The notes beneath the pieces are model-generated. The model did not search any database. It was not told the origin of the DNA and worked only from the letters and a program-made list of their open reading frames with translations. From assembly GCA_036567965.1 (NCBI GenBank), contig DATCTN010000007.1, forward strand, positions 237,009 to 301,008: a stretch of 64,000 nucleotides of DNA, read 5' to 3'. The translations under genes and the position numbers were made by a program. This document shows positions 20,149 through 44,558 of the stretch, one piece after another. The first letter of the stretch is position 1, and each line of letters begins with the position of its first letter. Source of the DNA: Candidatus Kryptoniota bacterium. Lineage in GTDB: Bacteria; Bacteroidota; Ignavibacteria; Kryptoniales; JAKASW01.

Positions 20149-20223
20149 GGGCAGTTAGCTCAGCTGGTTTAGAGCACATGCCTTACACGCATGGGGTCGG
20201 GGGTTCGAATCCCTCACTGCCCA
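20149..20223 (+). tRNA. tRNA-Val(TAC)
   Basis: A complete cloverleaf. The acceptor GGGCAGT pairs with ACTGCCC, the anticodon stem CATGC/GCATG holds the loop CTTACAC (anticodon TAC), and the T arm contains GGTTCGAATCC. CCA is not encoded. A GIY-YIG reading frame starts 2 bp after its last base, and a degenerate tRNA-like copy with the same 3' end lies at 20475-20642. Confidence 0.95.
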
Positions 20224-20225
20224 CG

Positions 20226-20498
20226 ATGTTTTATACTTACATAATCCTAAGCCTCAAGACGGGTAGATATTACGTCGGTAGCGCGTCAAATCTCGAACGC
20301 AGAGTTGATCAACACAATAGGGGTAAGACAACCTCGACACGAACGGGTATTCCCTGGAAACTTGCCTACTCCGAGGAATTCGATTCAAGAAAGAAAGCTG
20401 TAGAACGGGAGCGGTATATCAAGTCTCAAAAGAGCAAGATCTTCATCGAGCATCTTATCTCGAACGCCTCAGCCGGGCATGTAGGCCAGTTGGTTTAG
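20226..20498 (+). CDS. Small GIY-YIG nuclease family protein, tRNA-adjacent
   Basis: A 90-residue single-domain GIY-YIG protein (UPF0213-like). It has YTYIILSL and YYVGSASNLERRVDQHN, with the conserved Arg following the YVG strand, and ERERYIKSQ near the end. The ATG begins 2 bp after tRNA-Val, and the stop codon lies inside the D-arm of a tRNA-like copy. The last eight or so residues are therefore encoded by tRNA-derived sequence. The open frame also extends backwards through tRNA-Val, but that part is not protein-like. Placement between two tRNA-related sequences suggests insertion into a tRNA locus. Whether it is an active endonuclease is unknown. Confidence 0.75.
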   Translation: MFYTYIILSLKTGRYYVGSASNLERRVDQHNRGKTTSTRTGIPWKLAYSEEFDSRKKAVERERYIKSQKSKIFIEHLISNASAGHVGQLV

Positions 20499-20793: not shown

Positions 20794-21567
20794 ATGCCTG
20801 AAAAACATGAACAGAATCGGAACAGTGGGAGATTGCTCGCAATCGTTCTCGCTTCATCGTTCGCCCTCTTCCCTTTCACCCTCTTTGCCGGCCCGCCGTT
20901 CCGCACAGACGACCCGGTTCCGGTGCCGTACATGCACGGAGAATTGTATCTCTTTTCATCCGGCGTCACTGATGCAAGCGCGACCTCGGGTATTGGCCCC
21001 GCAGTGGAGTTTAACTTCGGAGTCTTCCATAACACACAATTCCACGTCGTCGTGCCCCTCGCGTACAACCTCCCAAGATCCGGCACTTCATACGCAGGTT
21101 TGGGTGATACAGAAGTGGGTGTTAAGTTTCGATTCCTTAATCAGTCAGATATCGTCCCGGACGTGGCAACGTTTCCTTTGGTCGAGCTGCCGACCGGCAA
21201 TGAGTCACGGAGTTTGGGCAATGGCAAGGCACAGATTTATCTCCCTCTCTGGCTGCAAAAGGACATCGGCAACTGGACGATTTACGGTGGGGCCGGGTAC
21301 TGGATTAATCCAGGGACGGGTAACAGGAACTGGAATTTTTCGGGTGTACTGGTACAGTACAATTTCTCCGATGATTTTTTTCTCGGGACCGAATTGTTTC
21401 ACCAGACTTCGGCCGCGGTCGACTCACCGTCATTTACCGGTCTTCACTTCGGCGGAGGAATTCCTGTTGTGAAGAACTACCAGGTATTATTTTCATGCGA
21501 TGCGGGAAACGGGATCACTTCGTACAAACACTTTGCGTATTATTTGGGTTTGTATCACACGTTTTGA
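20794..21567 (+). CDS. Predicted outer-membrane beta-barrel protein
   Basis: A 257-residue exported protein. The signal peptide ends near SFALFPFTLFAG (about residues 20-36), and the rest has alternating aromatic beta strands and ends in Phe (LGLYHTF), the usual outer-membrane assembly signal. Motifs such as GLGDTEVGVKFRF and PLVELPTGN resemble the phenol-degradation-meta-pathway/transporter-like barrel group. The open frame begins at 20518 inside the repeat, but only ATG 20794 gives a signal peptide. It converges with the polymerase gene and overlaps its end by 13 bp. The function is unknown. Confidence 0.75.
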   Translation: MPEKHEQNRNSGRLLAIVLASSFALFPFTLFAGPPFRTDDPVPVPYMHGELYLFSSGVTDASATSGIGPAVEFNFGVFHNTQFHVVVPLAYNLPRSGTSYAGLGDTEVGVKFRFLNQSDIVPDVATFPLVELPTGNESRSLGNGKAQIYLPLWLQKDIGNWTIYGGAGYWINPGTGNRNWNFSGVLVQYNFSDDFFLGTELFHQTSAAVDSPSFTGLHFGGGIPVVKNYQVLFSCDAGNGITSYKHFAYYLGLYHTF

Positions 21568-23852
21568 ATCAGCTCGCCGATTTTCTCTTCCTTCTTCTTG
21601 CGGATTACTTTTCTTTCAACACCTTTCGCGGGCGGTGTCCATCCGAGCGGTACCAATAGCACCTCAATTGCCTTCATCGCGAGGTCGGTATATTTCTCAA
21701 CGTCATATCCGTCTTCCGTACGATAAAAAACAAACGGCACTGCCTTGCGGCTGTCCTTCTTACCGGTGTGATCGACGATAATATATTCTGCCGTCTCACC
21801 CGGCTGAAGAGCGACTCCAGCTTCGGACATCGATTTCGCGACAACTGCCTGTGCGCTGTTGTGCTCGTATTCGTCGGCGTCCTTTGAAATTGTATGCCTG
21901 ATGACAAGTTCCATCGGTGCGACGCGGCCGCTTTTCAGGTTTTCCAGATGAGCACTTAAAATGTCGAGAGCAGCCGGTATCATTTTTTTCAATTCGGCGA
22001 CCGACCCGGCAGTCGCGAACAGATCGAGTATCTCACCCTGCATTTTCCTGACAAAGAGCGGGATGTCTCCGCGCCTGACCTCAATCCCGCGCACCTTCAC
22101 TTCCCCGTTCGTGTACGCGCCGACATACCGGTTCGCAGTCGGGATTTCCGGATCCATTCGAGAAGCAGGAAACAAGATCCATTTATAAATTCCTTCAAGT
22201 GAAATAAGGACCCCTACAGACTTTGATATCTCCTCTCCCAATTTTTTGTAGTCGTTTTCCGTCGCGCCGGCCTTTGCAAGCCACAGGCAATCCACGATCC
22301 CATGAATTACCGAGTAACCGTTTCTCTCGGCGATAATTTTCGCTTTAAGAAGCGCTTCGCGCGAGAACGCGTTTACCGATTCATGTGCTTCTATCTTTCC
22401 GAACCGCGCGTTTTTATAACCGAGGTAACCGAACGACGTGACAAGGAGCCACTTCAAGGAGGTCTGTCTCTTGTGATATTCCTTCTTCTCGGCTTCAGCG
22501 GTTGCTTTTCGCTCACGCAACTTGTACGCTGCGCGTTTCTTTAAAACGGGATCAAGCGTTTCAGCAATAATACCGCGCCTCTTTTCACAAAGCGTGTAGT
22601 GCAGCTCCGGCACTTTGTCGTTCTCGCAGCACTGACAGTTTACTGTTTCCGGAGAAATATTGTGCATGACCATCAGGCTCGGATACATCGACGCGAAGTC
22701 GAGCTCCGCCACCTGCTCGTGATAACCCATCTTTGGCAGATATATGAGTCCTCCCCTGTCCGCAAGTAGAAGTTGGGACGCGGATTTAAATTTTTCCCAT
22801 TCCTGTTTCTTCGCGGGAATCAGAACATCGTGCCGATAAGCCCAAGCAAGTTGTATCGATGACAGACCTGTTCCGATACTTTCGCGAGCCTGCCGCTGAA
22901 CAGGAATTCTCGTGATGCGCGCGAGCTCAAGAAGGCCGGAGAGGTCGGACTCGTCCATGATGAAGGAATTGTACGCGTCGAGATGCCACCGTCCGGCAAG
23001 CTCGAACGACCCGGCGCGGTGCACAACCTGCCCATAACTCCAGTAGCTGATCTCTCTTGTGTGCTGATAAGCGACAGATTCGTCGCGGTTTAGGTGGATC
23101 GGGACCTTCACTTCCTTCGACAAGGTCAGGAGCATCGGGAGAATCGTATGGTCGCCATATTCGGTGATCAGGACGTCAGGATCGCATCGATCAATGTGGC
23201 TGTTGATCCGCGTGATGAGTTCTTCGGACGAATCGGCTTCGATTGAATAAATGCGTCCGTCGTATCCCGCCTCGAGAGAGATGTTGTTCCTGTATTTGGG
23301 AGCCACTTCCGAAAACGACGGGCGGAGCGTCATGATCGTAAGAGGTGGAAGAGTGTAATCGACCGCGGTTATGTCGTCATCGAGCTGTATGTCAATCAGC
23401 TTTCCGTTCCCGTCAAAAGAATAGTCACCTAATGCGAGCGGAAATATGTCGCGTTCGAACATGAATGTCTGGACAGGAAGTAGATCTGAATTAAAAAAAA
23501 CGTAATATGGAAATTGGGATTCGAAGTGACGGACTATCTCCCTGAAGTGAAGAATATCCGGCACAACAACTTTGATTACTTTCAGGTGTTTGTCCGAATA
23601 CAGATCTTTCTTCTCGGTCCATCCTTCGGTGACAACGCATCGCAGCCTTTTCGCGACGGCTTCCACCTGTGGCCTGGTACTTTGGTCGACGTGCACAAAA
23701 AAGGAAGGACTAAACGGGGCGTACCCGCGGACGCTTCTCCCCGATTCGTCTATGATCCAGACGACGACCCCGCCTGCTGCGGGATAAATATCAAAGAGCC
23801 ATCCTCTGATCTTCAGCACGGAGCCCTGGTCTTTCCGGGAAAGCATTTCCAT
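21555..23852 (-). CDS. Family-B DNA polymerase, PolB2/Dpo2-like with degenerate motifs
   Basis: A 765-residue protein with the family-B order: N-terminal domain, exonuclease region, palm and thumb. Motif A is intact with Asp385 (DFASMYPS). Motif B is LKWLLVTSFGYLGY around Lys467, with the usual NS/YG changed. Motif C, normally YGDTDS, is HGIVDCLW (His517-Cys522), so only one of the two Asp remains. The exonuclease motifs are also lost: DIE is replaced by RPS near PPLTIMTL, and the ExoII region reads TEYGDH. This pattern matches the PolB2 group, long thought inactive but shown in Sulfolobus to act in damage tolerance. It ends a four-gene leftward block. The start is uncertain: ATG 23852, ATG 23846, or GTG 23819, which shortens the overlap with the upstream gene. 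Confidence 0.85.
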   Translation of the reverse strand: MEMLSRKDQGSVLKIRGWLFDIYPAAGGVVVWIIDESGRSVRGYAPFSPSFFVHVDQSTRPQVEAVAKRLRCVVTEGWTEKKDLYSDKHLKVIKVVVPDILHFREIVRHFESQFPYYVFFNSDLLPVQTFMFERDIFPLALGDYSFDGNGKLIDIQLDDDITAVDYTLPPLTIMTLRPSFSEVAPKYRNNISLEAGYDGRIYSIEADSSEELITRINSHIDRCDPDVLITEYGDHTILPMLLTLSKEVKVPIHLNRDESVAYQHTREISYWSYGQVVHRAGSFELAGRWHLDAYNSFIMDESDLSGLLELARITRIPVQRQARESIGTGLSSIQLAWAYRHDVLIPAKKQEWEKFKSASQLLLADRGGLIYLPKMGYHEQVAELDFASMYPSLMVMHNISPETVNCQCCENDKVPELHYTLCEKRRGIIAETLDPVLKKRAAYKLRERKATAEAEKKEYHKRQTSLKWLLVTSFGYLGYKNARFGKIEAHESVNAFSREALLKAKIIAERNGYSVIHGIVDCLWLAKAGATENDYKKLGEEISKSVGVLISLEGIYKWILFPASRMDPEIPTANRYVGAYTNGEVKVRGIEVRRGDIPLFVRKMQGEILDLFATAGSVAELKKMIPAALDILSAHLENLKSGRVAPMELVIRHTISKDADEYEHNSAQAVVAKSMSEAGVALQPGETAEYIIVDHTGKKDSRKAVPFVFYRTEDGYDVEKYTDLAMKAIEVLLVPLGWTPPAKGVERKVIRKKKEEKIGELIQNV

Positions 23853-24144
23853 CTTCTATTTCATCCGCGGCCTTGCCGCAACCGTTTACAAGTCGTGTGA
23901 GTTCAGTTAGTTTATGTTCGAGGACCGCAATCGCTTTTCTCTCCTCGACAAGCATGGACATTACAATATTCTCGAACGGGATCGGGTTGACCGCATAAGC
24001 GCATGCTGCAAGATGGATTTTCGGAGCCCTGAAGAGCTCGTCAAAAATTTCCTGGTCTTCCTTTCTCAGCGCCTCCCTGAATTTTTTCCATCTCGATTCC
24101 TGTTCGTGAATCACCATCGTGAACGTCGGCACTGTGCGTCCCAT
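23791..24144 (-). CDS. Small helical protein in the PolB2 block
   Basis: A 117-residue, largely alpha-helical, charged protein. The first 85 residues (ESRWKKFREALRKEDQEIFDELFR, here split by meaning rather than motif) and a central hydrophobic helix around HLAACAYAVNPIPFENIVM look folded. The tail is low-complexity. I do not recognise a family. AAGGAGA precedes ATG 24144. It lies 15 bp after the RecA-like gene, and its 3' end overlaps the polymerase start, so it is very likely co-expressed and may be an accessory subunit. Confidence 0.7.
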   Translation of the reverse strand: MGRTVPTFTMVIHEQESRWKKFREALRKEDQEIFDELFRAPKIHLAACAYAVNPIPFENIVMSMLVEERKAIAVLEHKLTELTRLVNGCGKAADEIEDGNAFPERPGLRAEDQRMAL

Positions 24145-24159
24145 CGCAGTCTCTCCTTA

Positions 24160-24858
24160 TTAAATTCTCATCGATGCTTTTCTTGCGATTGCTTGCCGTC
24201 CCGAATGGGAAGAGGTAACTCTTCTTTCAGCCGGATACGCCGCGTTTCCGTCGAGGACGTACAATTTGTCTGCCATATCCAGCATGCACTTTATAAGACT
24301 CTTTCTTTCCGGTTGGCGAGGGATGAGGTTTTCAGAGGCAAGCACAATGGAAATTCCATTCTGCTTCATGTTCTCGAACCGTGAACGTATCCTGAGCAGG
24401 CTCTTCTGTGCTTCCCTGACGGGTACCTGGTCATCGAACAGCGTGTGGAGGAGACCGAAGACAAACACTACTCTCGAACGGATCAGCGCGAGAAAAGGAG
24501 CAACGCCGTTTGTCAGCACGGCATCCATCTGGTAGCCGGTGAAGACACGCGACAGGTATATCCTGTCCAGAATTTCAGGCGGAGCGAAGCCGTCGATCTG
24601 CGCGAGCCGGGCAAGAGTATACAGGTCAAACCTGTTCGCACCGTCGATGAGTGCGACCGAGTCTGTGCGTTTCAGAAGTTCCTCGACCATGAAAAGAGAT
24701 GCACGATAGACGATCGAATCACCGTAAAGAAGGAGCGTTTTCCCCGGCGTGATTACGCCGATGTCCTTCGCAAGCTCCACGTAGCTTTCGGAAAGCGATT
24801 TACTTTCCAATTCATCATGCGATTCGTCAAATTTCGTTTCAGGCATTTTGCTCACCAT
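24160..24858 (-). CDS. RecA/RadB-fold protein without Walker A
   Basis: A 232-residue protein resembling the core of RecA/Rad51/RadB-like ATPases. It has SVALIDGANRFDLYTLARLA, then RIYLSRVFTGYQMDAVL, a Walker-B-like hydrophobic strand (RVVFVFGLLHTLF) and a strand ending ISIVLASEN. The expected P-loop position reads LLLYGDSIVYRAS, with no GKT/GKS, so ATP hydrolysis is doubtful. This resembles the RecA-like partners (such as ImuA) that accompany error-prone polymerases. ATG 24858 or 24846 could be the start. It overlaps the DUF72 gene end by about 20 nt. Confidence 0.7.
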   Translation of the reverse strand: MVSKMPETKFDESHDELESKSLSESYVELAKDIGVITPGKTLLLYGDSIVYRASLFMVEELLKRTDSVALIDGANRFDLYTLARLAQIDGFAPPEILDRIYLSRVFTGYQMDAVLTNGVAPFLALIRSRVVFVFGLLHTLFDDQVPVREAQKSLLRIRSRFENMKQNGISIVLASENLIPRQPERKSLIKCMLDMADKLYVLDGNAAYPAERRVTSSHSGRQAIARKASMRI

Positions 24859-25837
24859 TGAACATGTCCGGTTCCGGGCCGACGTCCACCCTGTCCGCGA
24901 TCGCGCCGAGCTCCGGGAAATACCGGATCAAGGTGGAAGGAATCCTGACGCGGTCCTGGTCTCTCAAGCGCTTGAGGAGTTCCAGCGCGTTCGCGACAGC
25001 TTTCCCGAGAGGATGGTTGTTCGCGACGACATACAGCTTGTCACATCTTTCCTTAACCACTCTGATCTTTCTTTCTATTTCGTCGAGCTCGCCGGTTGTA
25101 TACAGGTAATTGTACCTGTCGTTTCTTTGCTCATCGGCGATCTCGATTCCTTGTGCCAGCGCTTCCCTGCTCTCCGACCATTTTACGATGTTCCTGCCGT
25201 GGAGGCGGACATACCCATACTTACCCAGGTACTCCGGCTCAAATCCGACCATGCCGTTCAACATCGGCTGGTCGACAACGACAAGGTTCACGTTCAGCTT
25301 TTTCAAAAATTCCATGTCCTGATTGCTGTACCATGACAGGTGCCGAAGCTCCACGAAAAGACGATAGCCTCTGAACTCGTGGAGGAGAAACGCGAGATAA
25401 GATCTTGATTCCTCACCGGCTCTAAAATATTCGGAGAACTGTACGAGTAGCCCTCCAAGTTTCGCGCTTTCCACGAGCGGAGCAAGATATTCTTCTACTG
25501 CCGATTTATCGTCTCTGAACCCACTGGCCGGCGAACGCTTTCCGTGTGTGAAATTCTTATAGAGTTTGATTATGAATTCGAAGTTCGCATTCCCTTCCAC
25601 TTCTCCCAGCCATTTTTCAATCGTCTTCGGACCGAAGTGGCGGTAGAAAGTACTATTGACCTCCACGCAGTCGAAAAATTTCGAATAGAATTCCAGTCTT
25701 GAAAATCCTTTCTCCGGGCGCTCGGGATAGAAAGGCCCGACCCAATCCTCGTAATTCCATCCGGCTGTACCCACTAACACGTCAGGTGATTTTACGTCGC
25801 TTCCGGAACTTACATTCGGTTTATATTTTCCAGTCAT
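24839..25837 (-). CDS. DUF72 (YecE-like) TIM-barrel protein
   Basis: A 332-residue DUF72 family protein. The hallmark N-terminus TAGWNYEDWVGPFYPE, the strand VEVNSTFYR, the FEFIIKLYKNFTH segment and the later FVELRHLSWYS block are all present. DUF72 proteins form a TIM barrel related to AP-endonuclease-like folds; their activity is not established. It is the first gene of the four-gene leftward block. The frame begins with TTG 25846, but ATG 25837 is a better start. Position and overlaps suggest joint function with the RecA-like and polymerase genes. Confidence 0.85.
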   Translation of the reverse strand: MTGKYKPNVSSGSDVKSPDVLVGTAGWNYEDWVGPFYPERPEKGFSRLEFYSKFFDCVEVNSTFYRHFGPKTIEKWLGEVEGNANFEFIIKLYKNFTHGKRSPASGFRDDKSAVEEYLAPLVESAKLGGLLVQFSEYFRAGEESRSYLAFLLHEFRGYRLFVELRHLSWYSNQDMEFLKKLNVNLVVVDQPMLNGMVGFEPEYLGKYGYVRLHGRNIVKWSESREALAQGIEIADEQRNDRYNYLYTTGELDEIERKIRVVKERCDKLYVVANNHPLGKAVANALELLKRLRDQDRVRIPSTLIRYFPELGAIADRVDVGPEPDMFNGEQNA

Positions 25838-26180
25838 AAACTTCAAACTTCAATTTGAGCAAGCGGTAATTTCGATTTTTATCGATAGTAGACAAATGTT
25901 CACCTACAGAAATCTACGCTCCCCCGAATGAAAAGTCAAGATGTGGAGCAAAGTCGAGAATTATGCTACTAATACGCTGTATTCCAATATGTTATAGCGA
26001 AAACATAGAAGCGATTATTGTGAGCAATGCAGAAAAAAAGGAGTTCGAACTACAGCGGTATCAGCAGGCCGCAAGACATATCGTCGGCGATTGACGATTC
26101 TGCTGCACTCCTTAAGCCTCTATGCGCGGACGGACTGAGATTCGGCCGGATCCTCTAAATCTGTCGCATAGATCAATTCA
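25838..26180. other. Upstream region of the DUF72-PolB2 block
   Basis: I see no gene. Two symmetric elements lie just before the DUF72 start: TCGATTTTTATCGA (25872-25885) and a wider inverted pair GTAGA/TCTAC (25887-25916). The latter contains GACAAATGTTC, a partial match to a GAAC-N4-GTTC type box. They are candidate operators only. Confidence 0.3.
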
Positions 26181-40862: not shown

Positions 40863-43800
40863 ATGAAAGATCTGAATATCATCAGAGATATTCCATCCTT
40901 TGCAGATGGGAGTTACTCTAGAGAAGATGATGCTTTCGATCACGAAGCAATAGCCGAGACAGTGTTCAGGGTGCTCAATGAGAATGACCCTCCAATGACG
41001 ATAGGATTGTTTGGGAGCTGGGGAGTTGGGAAGACAAGCATCGTCAATTTGGTTGAGGCTAAATGTAAGAACAATCCCGAGGTGTACCATTTTGTCAACT
41101 TCAATGCTTGGGCATATTCAGGGGACTCGTTGCGCCGCCAGCTGCTATTGACATTAGCCGATTCCTTCATCAGAGATCCCGAAAAGAAAGAAGAGGAAAT
41201 AGGAAAGCTCAGAAGGTTAAACTACGCTAAGGCCCTCGAGGATTCTCCGGGGGATTCAATTGAAGATCTGTTCAAGCGTCTGCACGAAGAAGGGTGGTCC
41301 GCTTTTTTCAAAAAAGTAAAAGCTAATTTCAAAGAAGCATTCCGCGACGTTACGCTTTCTAAAGCAGGGTTGGTTTCACTCTCCTTCTCTGCCCTGTTCT
41401 TGCTTGCTGCAGTTGTGTTTCTTGCCTATGGTTTCGCAATGAAGGATGGAGAAATCCAGAGGTGGAGCCTGCTTTGGTTTACATTGAGTGCAGCCAGCTT
41501 TTTCAAACCAAAGGTAGAACAGGTGCTGGTCTTAAAACGACAGGAAGTCTTCGATGCGAAACTCATTTTCCCGGAACAGTTTGAAGAACATTACAATTTG
41601 CTATTGCATGAGTATGCTAACGACGTGCAGAAAGTCGTCATCGTAATTGATGACCTCGACAGATGCGATCCGGACACGATAAGAAGTGTGCTTGTGACGC
41701 TTAAGAACTTCATGGGGAAAGGTAAGACTATATTCCTCGTCCCAATGGATGATTCTTCAGTCGTCAGGATGTTCAAAGAGACAAACCCCAATTTTGGTTA
41801 TGAACAATTAAGAAAATATTTCAGCATATCAGTTAGAATTCCACCATTTCGTCAGGAGGATCTTCTGGATTTCGCCCGGCGGGTGTCAAGGAAGATCGGA
41901 ATACCGCCAAAGGTTGCCTGGGTAGCTGCCCAGGGATATTGTCATGATGCCAGGGAGATGAAACACTTTTTCAACCTTTATAAACTGAAGTACGCACTCG
42001 CCGAAGCCAGATTGAACAAAAAGTTTTTGCCCGATGTCGATTTGGAGAAGATCAGTGAGGAGCTTGCAAAGCTGGTAGTACTGGAGTACCAGTTTCCGGA
42101 GTTTTACCATTTCATCTCGTCGAACCCTGAGAAGTTTGAACTTATGAGTGATTTGGCGCGCGATATACCGAGACCGGAATTGGACAAAGTGGATCTCAAA
42201 GAGGTTAGCGGGGATCTCGCAAAACTGGACAACCCAAAGATCTCCGATCTCTGGAGGACTCAATCTGGCCTGAAGGGGTTTCTCAGCAGAACCTTCGATA
42301 TTGCTCTCGAGAATTTTGATGTCATTTCAAAACTAAAGACGAGCAATCAGGAATATGCCGTAAGTGACTTTGCACGAGCAATTGGAAGTGCGGTGACAGG
42401 TAACGAGAAGATTAATCTGGACGGATACTTGACGGAAGAAATTGCCAGGACAAATGGCTCGTCTATCACCGATGTCATAACAAGTTACTTTGATCCCGAT
42501 TTCCCTCGACCTACGCGGGTAGCTTTCCAAATTTCTATAGATATCTTAAAGAAAAATCTGCTTGATCATGACCAGCAGTCGGAGCTCTTAAGGAGTGCCG
42601 TCAGCATTGCGACAAATCCGAGCTGCAGTATCAAGTTGAGCGTGAACGAGGCGCTCGTTTTCCTGGACAATCTGAGCTATCTGGGAAGCCGTCAGCAAAT
42701 CGAATTTGGGAACAAGATTCTCTCGGATGTATTCCTCGGAGCCTCTTATCATCCGGAGTATTGGAGGATTCTAAACCATCCGGCGGTCAAGAAGATACTA
42801 TCAGCCAGCAAAAATGTTGGACAAAGAATTGCTGCTGCCACTGAGAAATGGTTTGGTGGCCTCAAAGACAATGATGCAAGGAAGATATTCCTTGAAGGAA
42901 TTGCTCATCTCGATTGGCCAAAGGACGAGCGCGCTTTAATGGGTCTCATTTTTCCATCCAACAATTTGCTTTCCGAATTGACCGCTTTGCTGATGACAGA
43001 TGTTCCGGACTTCGATCATCTTATTGTTGACACCGTATTGAACAAGAAAAACCCGGAAGATTATTCTGAAGAAAAAATTGGTCTTGGCAAGAAGATGTCA
43101 AATGTTCTGGCACAAAACATTCCTGCCAAAACCATTAATCCGGCTTTCCTGCTCGCTTGCAGTACCATTTACGAAATGCCAGAGTGGTTGGACGAACAGA
43201 CTGCCATCATCATCGGATCTCAAATAATCAATGCGTTCCCCGACTTTAAGCACGACAAGGGAAAACAATTATTGTTGGACACGTTGCTCGTAGCTTATTG
43301 TTCTCTCGACAAATACTTGCCGAAGAAGCGGGAGTTCGGAGAAAATTATCTACTGTATTGTGATGGTCTCGCCCCGGCGGAAGTGATTCTTCAGGCAGTT
43401 AGAATAAAATCAGGCGCACTCGCAGGTGAAGAAGCGGAGAAAGCAATCCTGCCACAGTTGTTTTTGAGAAGATGGTCCAGCGTTCTAAAAGAAATCGACT
43501 CGCCTAGTGAATCGACAATTGAGAACGCAAGATTGTGTCGAGAGTTTCGGTATCTTATCCCGGCTTCAGAATACAAGGATTTGATTTTGCATCTGACAAA
43601 ACTTCCAAATCAAGGAGCTTTGGAAAAGTGGAGTGCTTTCTTCACCGAGGAGTTAAGGACTTCTGAACTTTCGGAATTGCACTTATATCTCGATCAGTTG
43701 CGAGAGAGCTTGTCCTCAAAATCACTCGCGACGGAAATGAGGCTCGCTTATGGCGAACTGCTTATTAAGCTGCTCCTTGAATTTCCCGTGGATGAAGTCA

Positions 43801-44558
43801 AGCAGCATTACGAAAAGCTCTTTCTCTTGCTCTCGGATGAAGACACTATGAATGTTACATTTGTCGCCGATCAGTTTCCAACTCTTAGTAGGAGATTCGG
43901 GAACGATGTCCCAATACAAAAAGCAAATGAGGTTGCAGAAACCCTCCTTAACAGGAATGATATTGGGCGATACTCCAGATCTATCAAGATCCTTCTGGGA
44001 TTTGCGACCACCGTAAGACAGTCTATATGGGAAATCGTTGCTAACAAAGTAATAGCTGACCTACAAAATGAGTTAAAGGACGTTGAACACAGATGGCAGC
44101 TGTTGGAGCTCCTTTCTGGTCTCAGAACTCCGGTTTCTCATTCCGACCAACTGACTAAGACGTTATATGAATACAGAGAGGCTGGCAAGGTTGATCAGTT
44201 GAAGAAAAAAGCGAATGAATTGTGCGGCATCCTTACCGGCAGAAAAATAATGCAGCCATACTCACCGCGTCGTTCTCATGACACCACAGCACCATCTGGT
44301 TTCCCGGGAAATGGCGACAGATCGACGTCCTCGCTCAAAGTCACTAATGCGGTATATGGGACCGTCTCTAAGTCGGTGGATGTAACTACAAAACTGAACG
44401 GGCTTATTCGCAATAATCACTTGTCTGCAACTGCATCGAACGCACTTGGAGGAGATCCAAACCTAGAGGGTTTGAAACGGTTAGTGATAATATATGAGGT
44501 CGGTGGAAAGATACTTAAGAGAGAGTACGTCGAAAACGAGAAGGTTGAATTGCCTTAA
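40863..44558 (+). CDS. KAP-family P-loop NTPase, very large
   Basis: A 1231-residue STAND/KAP-type NTPase. Walker A is GSWGVGKT at residues 51-58. A pair of membrane helices is inserted in the NTPase domain (about 170-192 and 203-217), the hallmark of KAP proteins. Walker B is VVIVIDDLDRCDP around 258-270. An all-helical C-terminal part of about 800 residues without a recognised motif probably forms a repeat-type scaffold. The KAP family includes PifA, which excludes phage T7, so an abortive defence role is possible but unproven. It is a single gene with a strong ribosome site and no operon partner, beside the accessory region. Confidence 0.88.
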   Translation: MKDLNIIRDIPSFADGSYSREDDAFDHEAIAETVFRVLNENDPPMTIGLFGSWGVGKTSIVNLVEAKCKNNPEVYHFVNFNAWAYSGDSLRRQLLLTLADSFIRDPEKKEEEIGKLRRLNYAKALEDSPGDSIEDLFKRLHEEGWSAFFKKVKANFKEAFRDVTLSKAGLVSLSFSALFLLAAVVFLAYGFAMKDGEIQRWSLLWFTLSAASFFKPKVEQVLVLKRQEVFDAKLIFPEQFEEHYNLLLHEYANDVQKVVIVIDDLDRCDPDTIRSVLVTLKNFMGKGKTIFLVPMDDSSVVRMFKETNPNFGYEQLRKYFSISVRIPPFRQEDLLDFARRVSRKIGIPPKVAWVAAQGYCHDAREMKHFFNLYKLKYALAEARLNKKFLPDVDLEKISEELAKLVVLEYQFPEFYHFISSNPEKFELMSDLARDIPRPELDKVDLKEVSGDLAKLDNPKISDLWRTQSGLKGFLSRTFDIALENFDVISKLKTSNQEYAVSDFARAIGSAVTGNEKINLDGYLTEEIARTNGSSITDVITSYFDPDFPRPTRVAFQISIDILKKNLLDHDQQSELLRSAVSIATNPSCSIKLSVNEALVFLDNLSYLGSRQQIEFGNKILSDVFLGASYHPEYWRILNHPAVKKILSASKNVGQRIAAATEKWFGGLKDNDARKIFLEGIAHLDWPKDERALMGLIFPSNNLLSELTALLMTDVPDFDHLIVDTVLNKKNPEDYSEEKIGLGKKMSNVLAQNIPAKTINPAFLLACSTIYEMPEWLDEQTAIIIGSQIINAFPDFKHDKGKQLLLDTLLVAYCSLDKYLPKKREFGENYLLYCDGLAPAEVILQAVRIKSGALAGEEAEKAILPQLFLRRWSSVLKEIDSPSESTIENARLCREFRYLIPASEYKDLILHLTKLPNQGALEKWSAFFTEELRTSELSELHLYLDQLRESLSSKSLATEMRLAYGELLIKLLLEFPVDEVKQHYEKLFLLLSDEDTMNVTFVADQFPTLSRRFGNDVPIQKANEVAETLLNRNDIGRYSRSIKILLGFATTVRQSIWEIVANKVIADLQNELKDVEHRWQLLELLSGLRTPVSHSDQLTKTLYEYREAGKVDQLKKKANELCGILTGRKIMQPYSPRRSHDTTAPSGFPGNGDRSTSSLKVTNAVYGTVSKSVDVTTKLNGLIRNNHLSATASNALGGDPNLEGLKRLVIIYEVGGKILKREYVENEKVELP

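Follow-up and report, generated by a model that had tools for sequence, protein, structure and literature searches.

An operon joining PolB2, an inactivated RadA and arCOG07300 was described by Makarova et al. in 2014 from genomes that include bacterial ones, where lexA sometimes accompanies it (PMC4104785). Timinskas et al. (2025) named iRadA and PPB2 and modelled a heteropentamer; their account of this PolB2 mutasome covers damage induction and models of the complex, reports that lexA, SRAP and DUF72 genes are enriched near polB2, describes DUF72 as structurally akin to UV damage endonuclease, and finds a β-clamp motif in iRadA or PolB2 to be frequent, not universal (PMC11791011). The Sulfolobus representative, Dpo2, is an active polymerase that has no exonuclease activity, can elongate primers that end in a mispair or at a lesion, and without which damage-induced mutagenesis does not occur (PMC8764526; PMC7390963). 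Pol V and Pol ζ have been proposed in the literature as the closest architectural analogues.

The locus analysed here lies in a 64-kb stretch of DNA, referred to in its entirety as the window, and resembles the bacterial G2 group of PolB2 mutasomes in gene order, a RadA/Rad51 fold devoid of a P-loop, a PPB2 that starts with MGRT, an altered DxD motif (IVD), a decayed exonuclease, a D(K/R) motif (DR) near an FxxA-like motif and, in its relatives, LexA-type control. It differs from them in that its operon is headed by DUF72, which overlaps iRadA, and includes neither lexA nor a clear C-terminal β-clamp motif. Sulfolobus islandicus Dpo2 belongs to the same polymerase group and has a similar DxD substitution (IID there, IVD here) but is archaeal and set in a context of PCNA and Orc1/Cdc6, in place of the β-clamp and LexA of the window type. 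The likeness to E. coli Pol V (UmuD'2C-RecA) is by analogy: there too a polymerase is held to a RecA-family protein via an oligomerisation-type motif and a small oligomeric subunit takes part, but the polymerase is of the Y family, RecA is active and UmuD' stands in place of PPB2; the two are not homologous as systems. E. coli Pol II has an active 3'-5' exonuclease and an intact DxD, neither of which the window PolB2 possesses; a separate PolB of ~779 aa, encoded on another contig (C30) of the window genome, is only distantly similar to PolB2. The sequence-only reading had likened the locus to ImuA-ImuB-DnaE2 cassettes rebuilt around a family-B enzyme. A RecA-like accessory does adjoin a specialised polymerase here, as in those cassettes, but we reject an ImuA-type cassette because both the Y-family-like ImuB and the C-family DnaE2 are absent from the four genes.

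Four genes and their predicted products

Four closely packed open reading frames occupy the minus strand within positions 21555-25837 (Table 1), and the leftward run of overlapping or nearly touching genes perceived earlier is thus confirmed. The iRadA frame overlaps that of DUF72 by 20 bp, PPB2 starts 15 bp past the iRadA stop with AAGGAG ahead of it, and the polB2 frame overlaps that of PPB2 by 62 bp; these overlaps and the short gap point to a single transcript for the four genes. A TTG at 25846 is an alternative start for DUF72. The last three genes, adjacent on one strand in the order iRadA, PPB2, PolB2 known from the PolB2 mutasome, are the published mutasome operon (PMC4104785, PMC11791011).

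Table 1. Features of the operon and its upstream region (window coordinates)
Feature	Position	Strand	Description
PolB2-group B-family DNA polymerase	21555-23852	-	765 aa; PF00136, 1.9e-34
I519-V-D521 replacing the catalytic DxD (motif C)	22290-22298	-	PolB2 alignment and P. abyssi PolB alignment
D365-R366, PolB2-specific D(K/R) motif	22755-22760	-	Invariant in 19 sequences; motif per PMC11791011
FKSA, residues 355-358, FxxA-like (Rad51-oligomerisation type)	22779-22790	-	F355 and K356 invariant in 19 sequences
PPB2 (arCOG07300-like), small helical subunit	23791-24144	-	117 aa; start MGRTVPTFT
MGRT N-terminal arm motif of PPB2	24133-24144	-	Diagnostic motif per PMC11791011
iRadA	24160-24858	-	232 aa; RadA/Rad51 fold; N-terminal helical domain and P-loop both lacking
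DUF72 gene (TIM-barrel family), operon head	24839-25837	-	ATG start; Pfam PF01904, 1.9e-48
Candidate LexA-type operator GTGAACATTTGTCTAC	25888-25903	-	16 bp, palindrome-like, in the promoter before DUF72
σ70-type promoter TTGACT-17-TAGATT	25911-25939	-	Weak on its own

iRadA could be assigned to no Pfam family, and none of its NCBIfam hits was meaningful, but a sequence profile of the protein matched RadA chains (best 1.6e-5). Its predicted structure (pLDDT 81.6) superimposes on RAD51/RadA with Z scores of 19-20 over ~190 residues, residues 26-232 matching RAD51 104-326 and thus beginning past the RAD51 N-terminal domain, and the protein lacks a GxxxxGK[ST] P-loop. The description of a RecA-fold protein that lacks a P-loop was therefore correct as to the P-loop, while the fold, judged by the model, is closer to RadA/Rad51 than to bacterial RecA. 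The 117-aa helical protein, previously considered to have no assigned role, is PPB2: it has the diagnostic MGRT start, and a role for it had already been proposed. Residues M1, G2, R3, T7 and T9 are invariant in an alignment of 17 PPB2 sequences, and the predicted model is mostly helical.

NCBIfam type B polymerase profiles match PolB2 at 5.7e-120, a match below the profile cut-offs. The exonuclease profile PF03104 is marginal (0.037), and neither the exo I Asp-Glu pair nor the exo II Asn is kept in an alignment with P. abyssi PolB; the exonuclease active site has been lost. FKSA, by its position ahead of the D(K/R) motif and by the model of PMC11791011, may be assigned as the Rad51-oligomerisation-like stretch. 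Inspection by eye revealed no clear β-clamp motif in the C-termini of the window PolB2 or iRadA; several relatives end in putative motifs of this kind (QLWLF, QELPLF and QDLPLF).

The first Asp of DxD is substituted by I519, as is usual for bacterial PolB2. This replacement and the loss of the iRadA ATPase could be taken to mean that PolB2 is an inactive scaffold that regulates replication or recombination together with iRadA, the interpretation given earlier in PMC4104785. We regard this as highly improbable: a substitution of this kind in S. islandicus Dpo2 leaves that enzyme active as an extender polymerase (PMC11791011, PMC8764526), and across 19 aligned PolB2 sequences D521 does not vary, nor does much of the palm.

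Elsewhere in the window, a 1231-aa KAP-family P-loop NTPase (3.8e-29) is encoded at 40863-44558 in a stretch whose GC content (0.44-0.45) is below that of the rest. A small GIY-YIG protein frame (20178-20498) directly follows a tRNA-Gly/tRNA-Val pair, its first start codon lying inside the tRNA-Val gene, and a 930-aa frame at 34103-36895 matches no Pfam family at 0.001.

Distribution of the core and LexA-type operators

Among 296 genomes sampled across the phylum, full-length PolB2 orthologues (threshold, >750 bits) are present in 14, all of the window's class, and profile searches with iRadA and with PPB2 recover exactly the same 14; a single extra weak PPB2 match (8.5e-4) was discounted. The three genes are adjacent in 13 of these carriers. 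In the fourteenth, G228 (locus L043), PolB2 looked like an orphan, a notion we rejected because iRadA and PPB2 follow it on its own strand after ~6 kb. Metagenome-assembled genomes supply more congeners with the operon (L033-L036). Genome G297 has two PolB2 genes (L037 1757-4054 and L102; contigs C69 and C81), one intact and one split into two frames, and no iRadA or PPB2 partners were found in the stretches read around them. The expectation that all four genes travel together holds for iRadA, PPB2 and PolB2 but fails for DUF72, which is near the operon in few carriers.

The promoter call upstream of DUF72 is weak on its own, as nine such sites occur in 5 kb against 4.2 expected by chance. In five congeners (G039 and L033-L036) lexA directly precedes iRadA; the lexA-iRadA-PPB2-polB2 promoters of L033-L036 carry the perfect palindrome GTATACATTTGTATAC, the exact operator being present in all four, and that of G039 carries the palindromic operator TACCCTACATTTGTAGGGTA. 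The window site GTGAACATTTGTCTAC deviates from GTATACATTTGTATAC by three mismatches, its left half being imperfect, and is the only match with three or fewer mismatches in the 64 kb, where 0.15 would be expected. A matrix built from eight sites scores only one other position of the window higher, and that position is inside an open reading frame. The dedicated lexA that opens the operon of congeners (for example, L038 7213-7890) is accompanied by a perfect palindromic operator.

An operon-type lexA was not found in the window genome, whose two lexA genes are elsewhere. One adjoins the sole Y-family polymerase gene (dinB) on another contig, and the lexA-dinB promoter carries GTAGAAATATATCTAC; GTGAACATTTGTCTAC ends in TCTACTAT, as does the lexA-dinB box, so that the right halves are equal. 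A pattern that accommodates both sites has only three matches in the 4.1-Mb genome, one at each of these promoters and one within a gene, although this tally is only supportive because the pattern was drawn after both sites had been seen; the third match, inside a dacB-like gene, was set aside. We also rejected the window site as an instance of the lexA-dinB box TAGTAGA-N6-TCTACTA, from which it differs at four or more positions, and that box was not enriched over the control in the genome. At the locus where lexA lies beside the Y-family polymerase gene (L062 3249-3878 and 1907-3235; G000 contig C27), the promoter contains a perfect 20-bp palindrome, TAGTAGAAATATATCTACTA, the inner 16 bp of which are similar in G039. 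We infer that GTGAACATTTGTCTAC is a candidate LexA-type operator, either retained or converted.

DUF72 at the head of the operon

The DUF72 sequence matches the solved structures 1VPQ (1.8e-28) and 1VPY (5.7e-23), and our literature search on DUF72 function yielded nothing relevant besides PMC11791011. An obligatory partnership with the operon can be rejected. Only 3 of the 14 carriers, from three families, have DUF72 no more than 5 kb from the operon (the window genome, G120 and G014; in G014, on the opposite strand), and in the 30 genomes searched for it, it is present in 10 of 14 carriers versus 8 of 16 non-carriers. With 18 DUF72 copies in 14 genomes of ~4 Mb, we estimate that chance would produce ~0.05 such cases. 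The linkage is therefore genuine and fits the published enrichment, but DUF72 is a loose, occasional neighbour. The G120 locus (L047 2804-10297) unites all bacterial neighbour types named in PMC11791011, with lexA, DUF72, an opposite-strand SRAP gene, iRadA, PPB2 and PolB2 within 7.5 kb.

What DUF72 does at the head of the window operon admits several explanations. It could be a mere chance neighbour that came to occupy the promoter position once the operon's lexA had been lost, a conceivable though doubtful account: the slot before iRadA belongs to lexA in G039 and L033-L036, that lexA type is missing from the window genome, and in most PolB2 carriers DUF72 is unlinked, but the linkage recurs across unrelated families in our sample and, more widely, in both archaea and bacteria (PMC11791011), and an operator-like site has been retained ahead of DUF72. 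The overlapping DUF72 and iRadA frames, the recurrence above the chance estimate and the published enrichment and kinship with UV damage endonuclease (PMC11791011) would all suit DUF72 being an integral part of a four-component system, in which a TIM-barrel enzyme resembling UV endonuclease would process lesions on behalf of the PolB2 complex. Such integration seems unlikely, however, given that DUF72 is outside the operon in 13 of the 14 sampled carriers, congener G039 included, is absent altogether from four of them and is common in genomes devoid of PolB2, and that the SRAP gene on the other strand separates it from iRadA in G120. We give little credence to a more specific scenario, in which DUF72 is a damage-processing enzyme that in this lineage has displaced LexA from the head of its own operon, leaving the lexA-dinB repressor in control. 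Most likely, DUF72 acts on damaged DNA in the same response and is not a subunit of the complex.

Proposed lesion bypass under LexA-type control

Gene order, co-occurrence, folds, motifs and the similarity of promoter and operator, all observed here, make it very probable that we are dealing with the known PolB2 mutasome operon in a version headed by DUF72, induced by damage under LexA-type control, in which a PolB2-iRadA-PPB2 complex extends past lesions. The role we consider likeliest is bypass of lesions, induced by damage, in which PolB2 would serve as the extender. For complex formation, extender activity and damage induction we draw on published work on relatives: by homology with Sulfolobus Dpo2 the window complex should act like that enzyme, together with iRadA and PPB2. 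Our literature search found no expression or biochemical data for a bacterial PolB2. Weighing against this reading are also the imperfect match of the window operator, the missing operon-type lexA, the lack of a clear β-clamp motif in the window proteins and the partnerless PolB2 genes of G297.

We propose that DNA damage would release a LexA-type repressor from the operator beside the promoter, whereupon the four genes would be transcribed together. PolB2 would bind one iRadA through the FxxA-like stretch, in the way that Rad51 subunits associate with one another, and a PPB2 trimer would join the complex, its MGRT arm reaching the D365-R366 loop and DNA. Extension would be performed by PolB2, with its altered IVD active site and no proofreading exonuclease, and would carry primer ends past lesions, favouring survival with mutations as the cost.

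The reading of the block as a damage-tolerance or mutagenesis system is right in outline and well supported for iRadA, PPB2 and PolB2, yet it had already been published (PMC4104785; PMC11791011; PMC8764526), as had the enrichment of DUF72 near the operon. The series of operators ties PolB2 to LexA control in the window's group, and the window supplies a compact example: its DUF72 gene overlaps those of the complex and has a promoter in common with them. Worth following is that DUF72 sits where congeners have lexA and that an operator-like site accompanies it: if DUF72 has indeed taken that place as a damage-processing enzyme, a TIM-barrel enzyme acting on lesions would be produced together with the complex that bypasses them.
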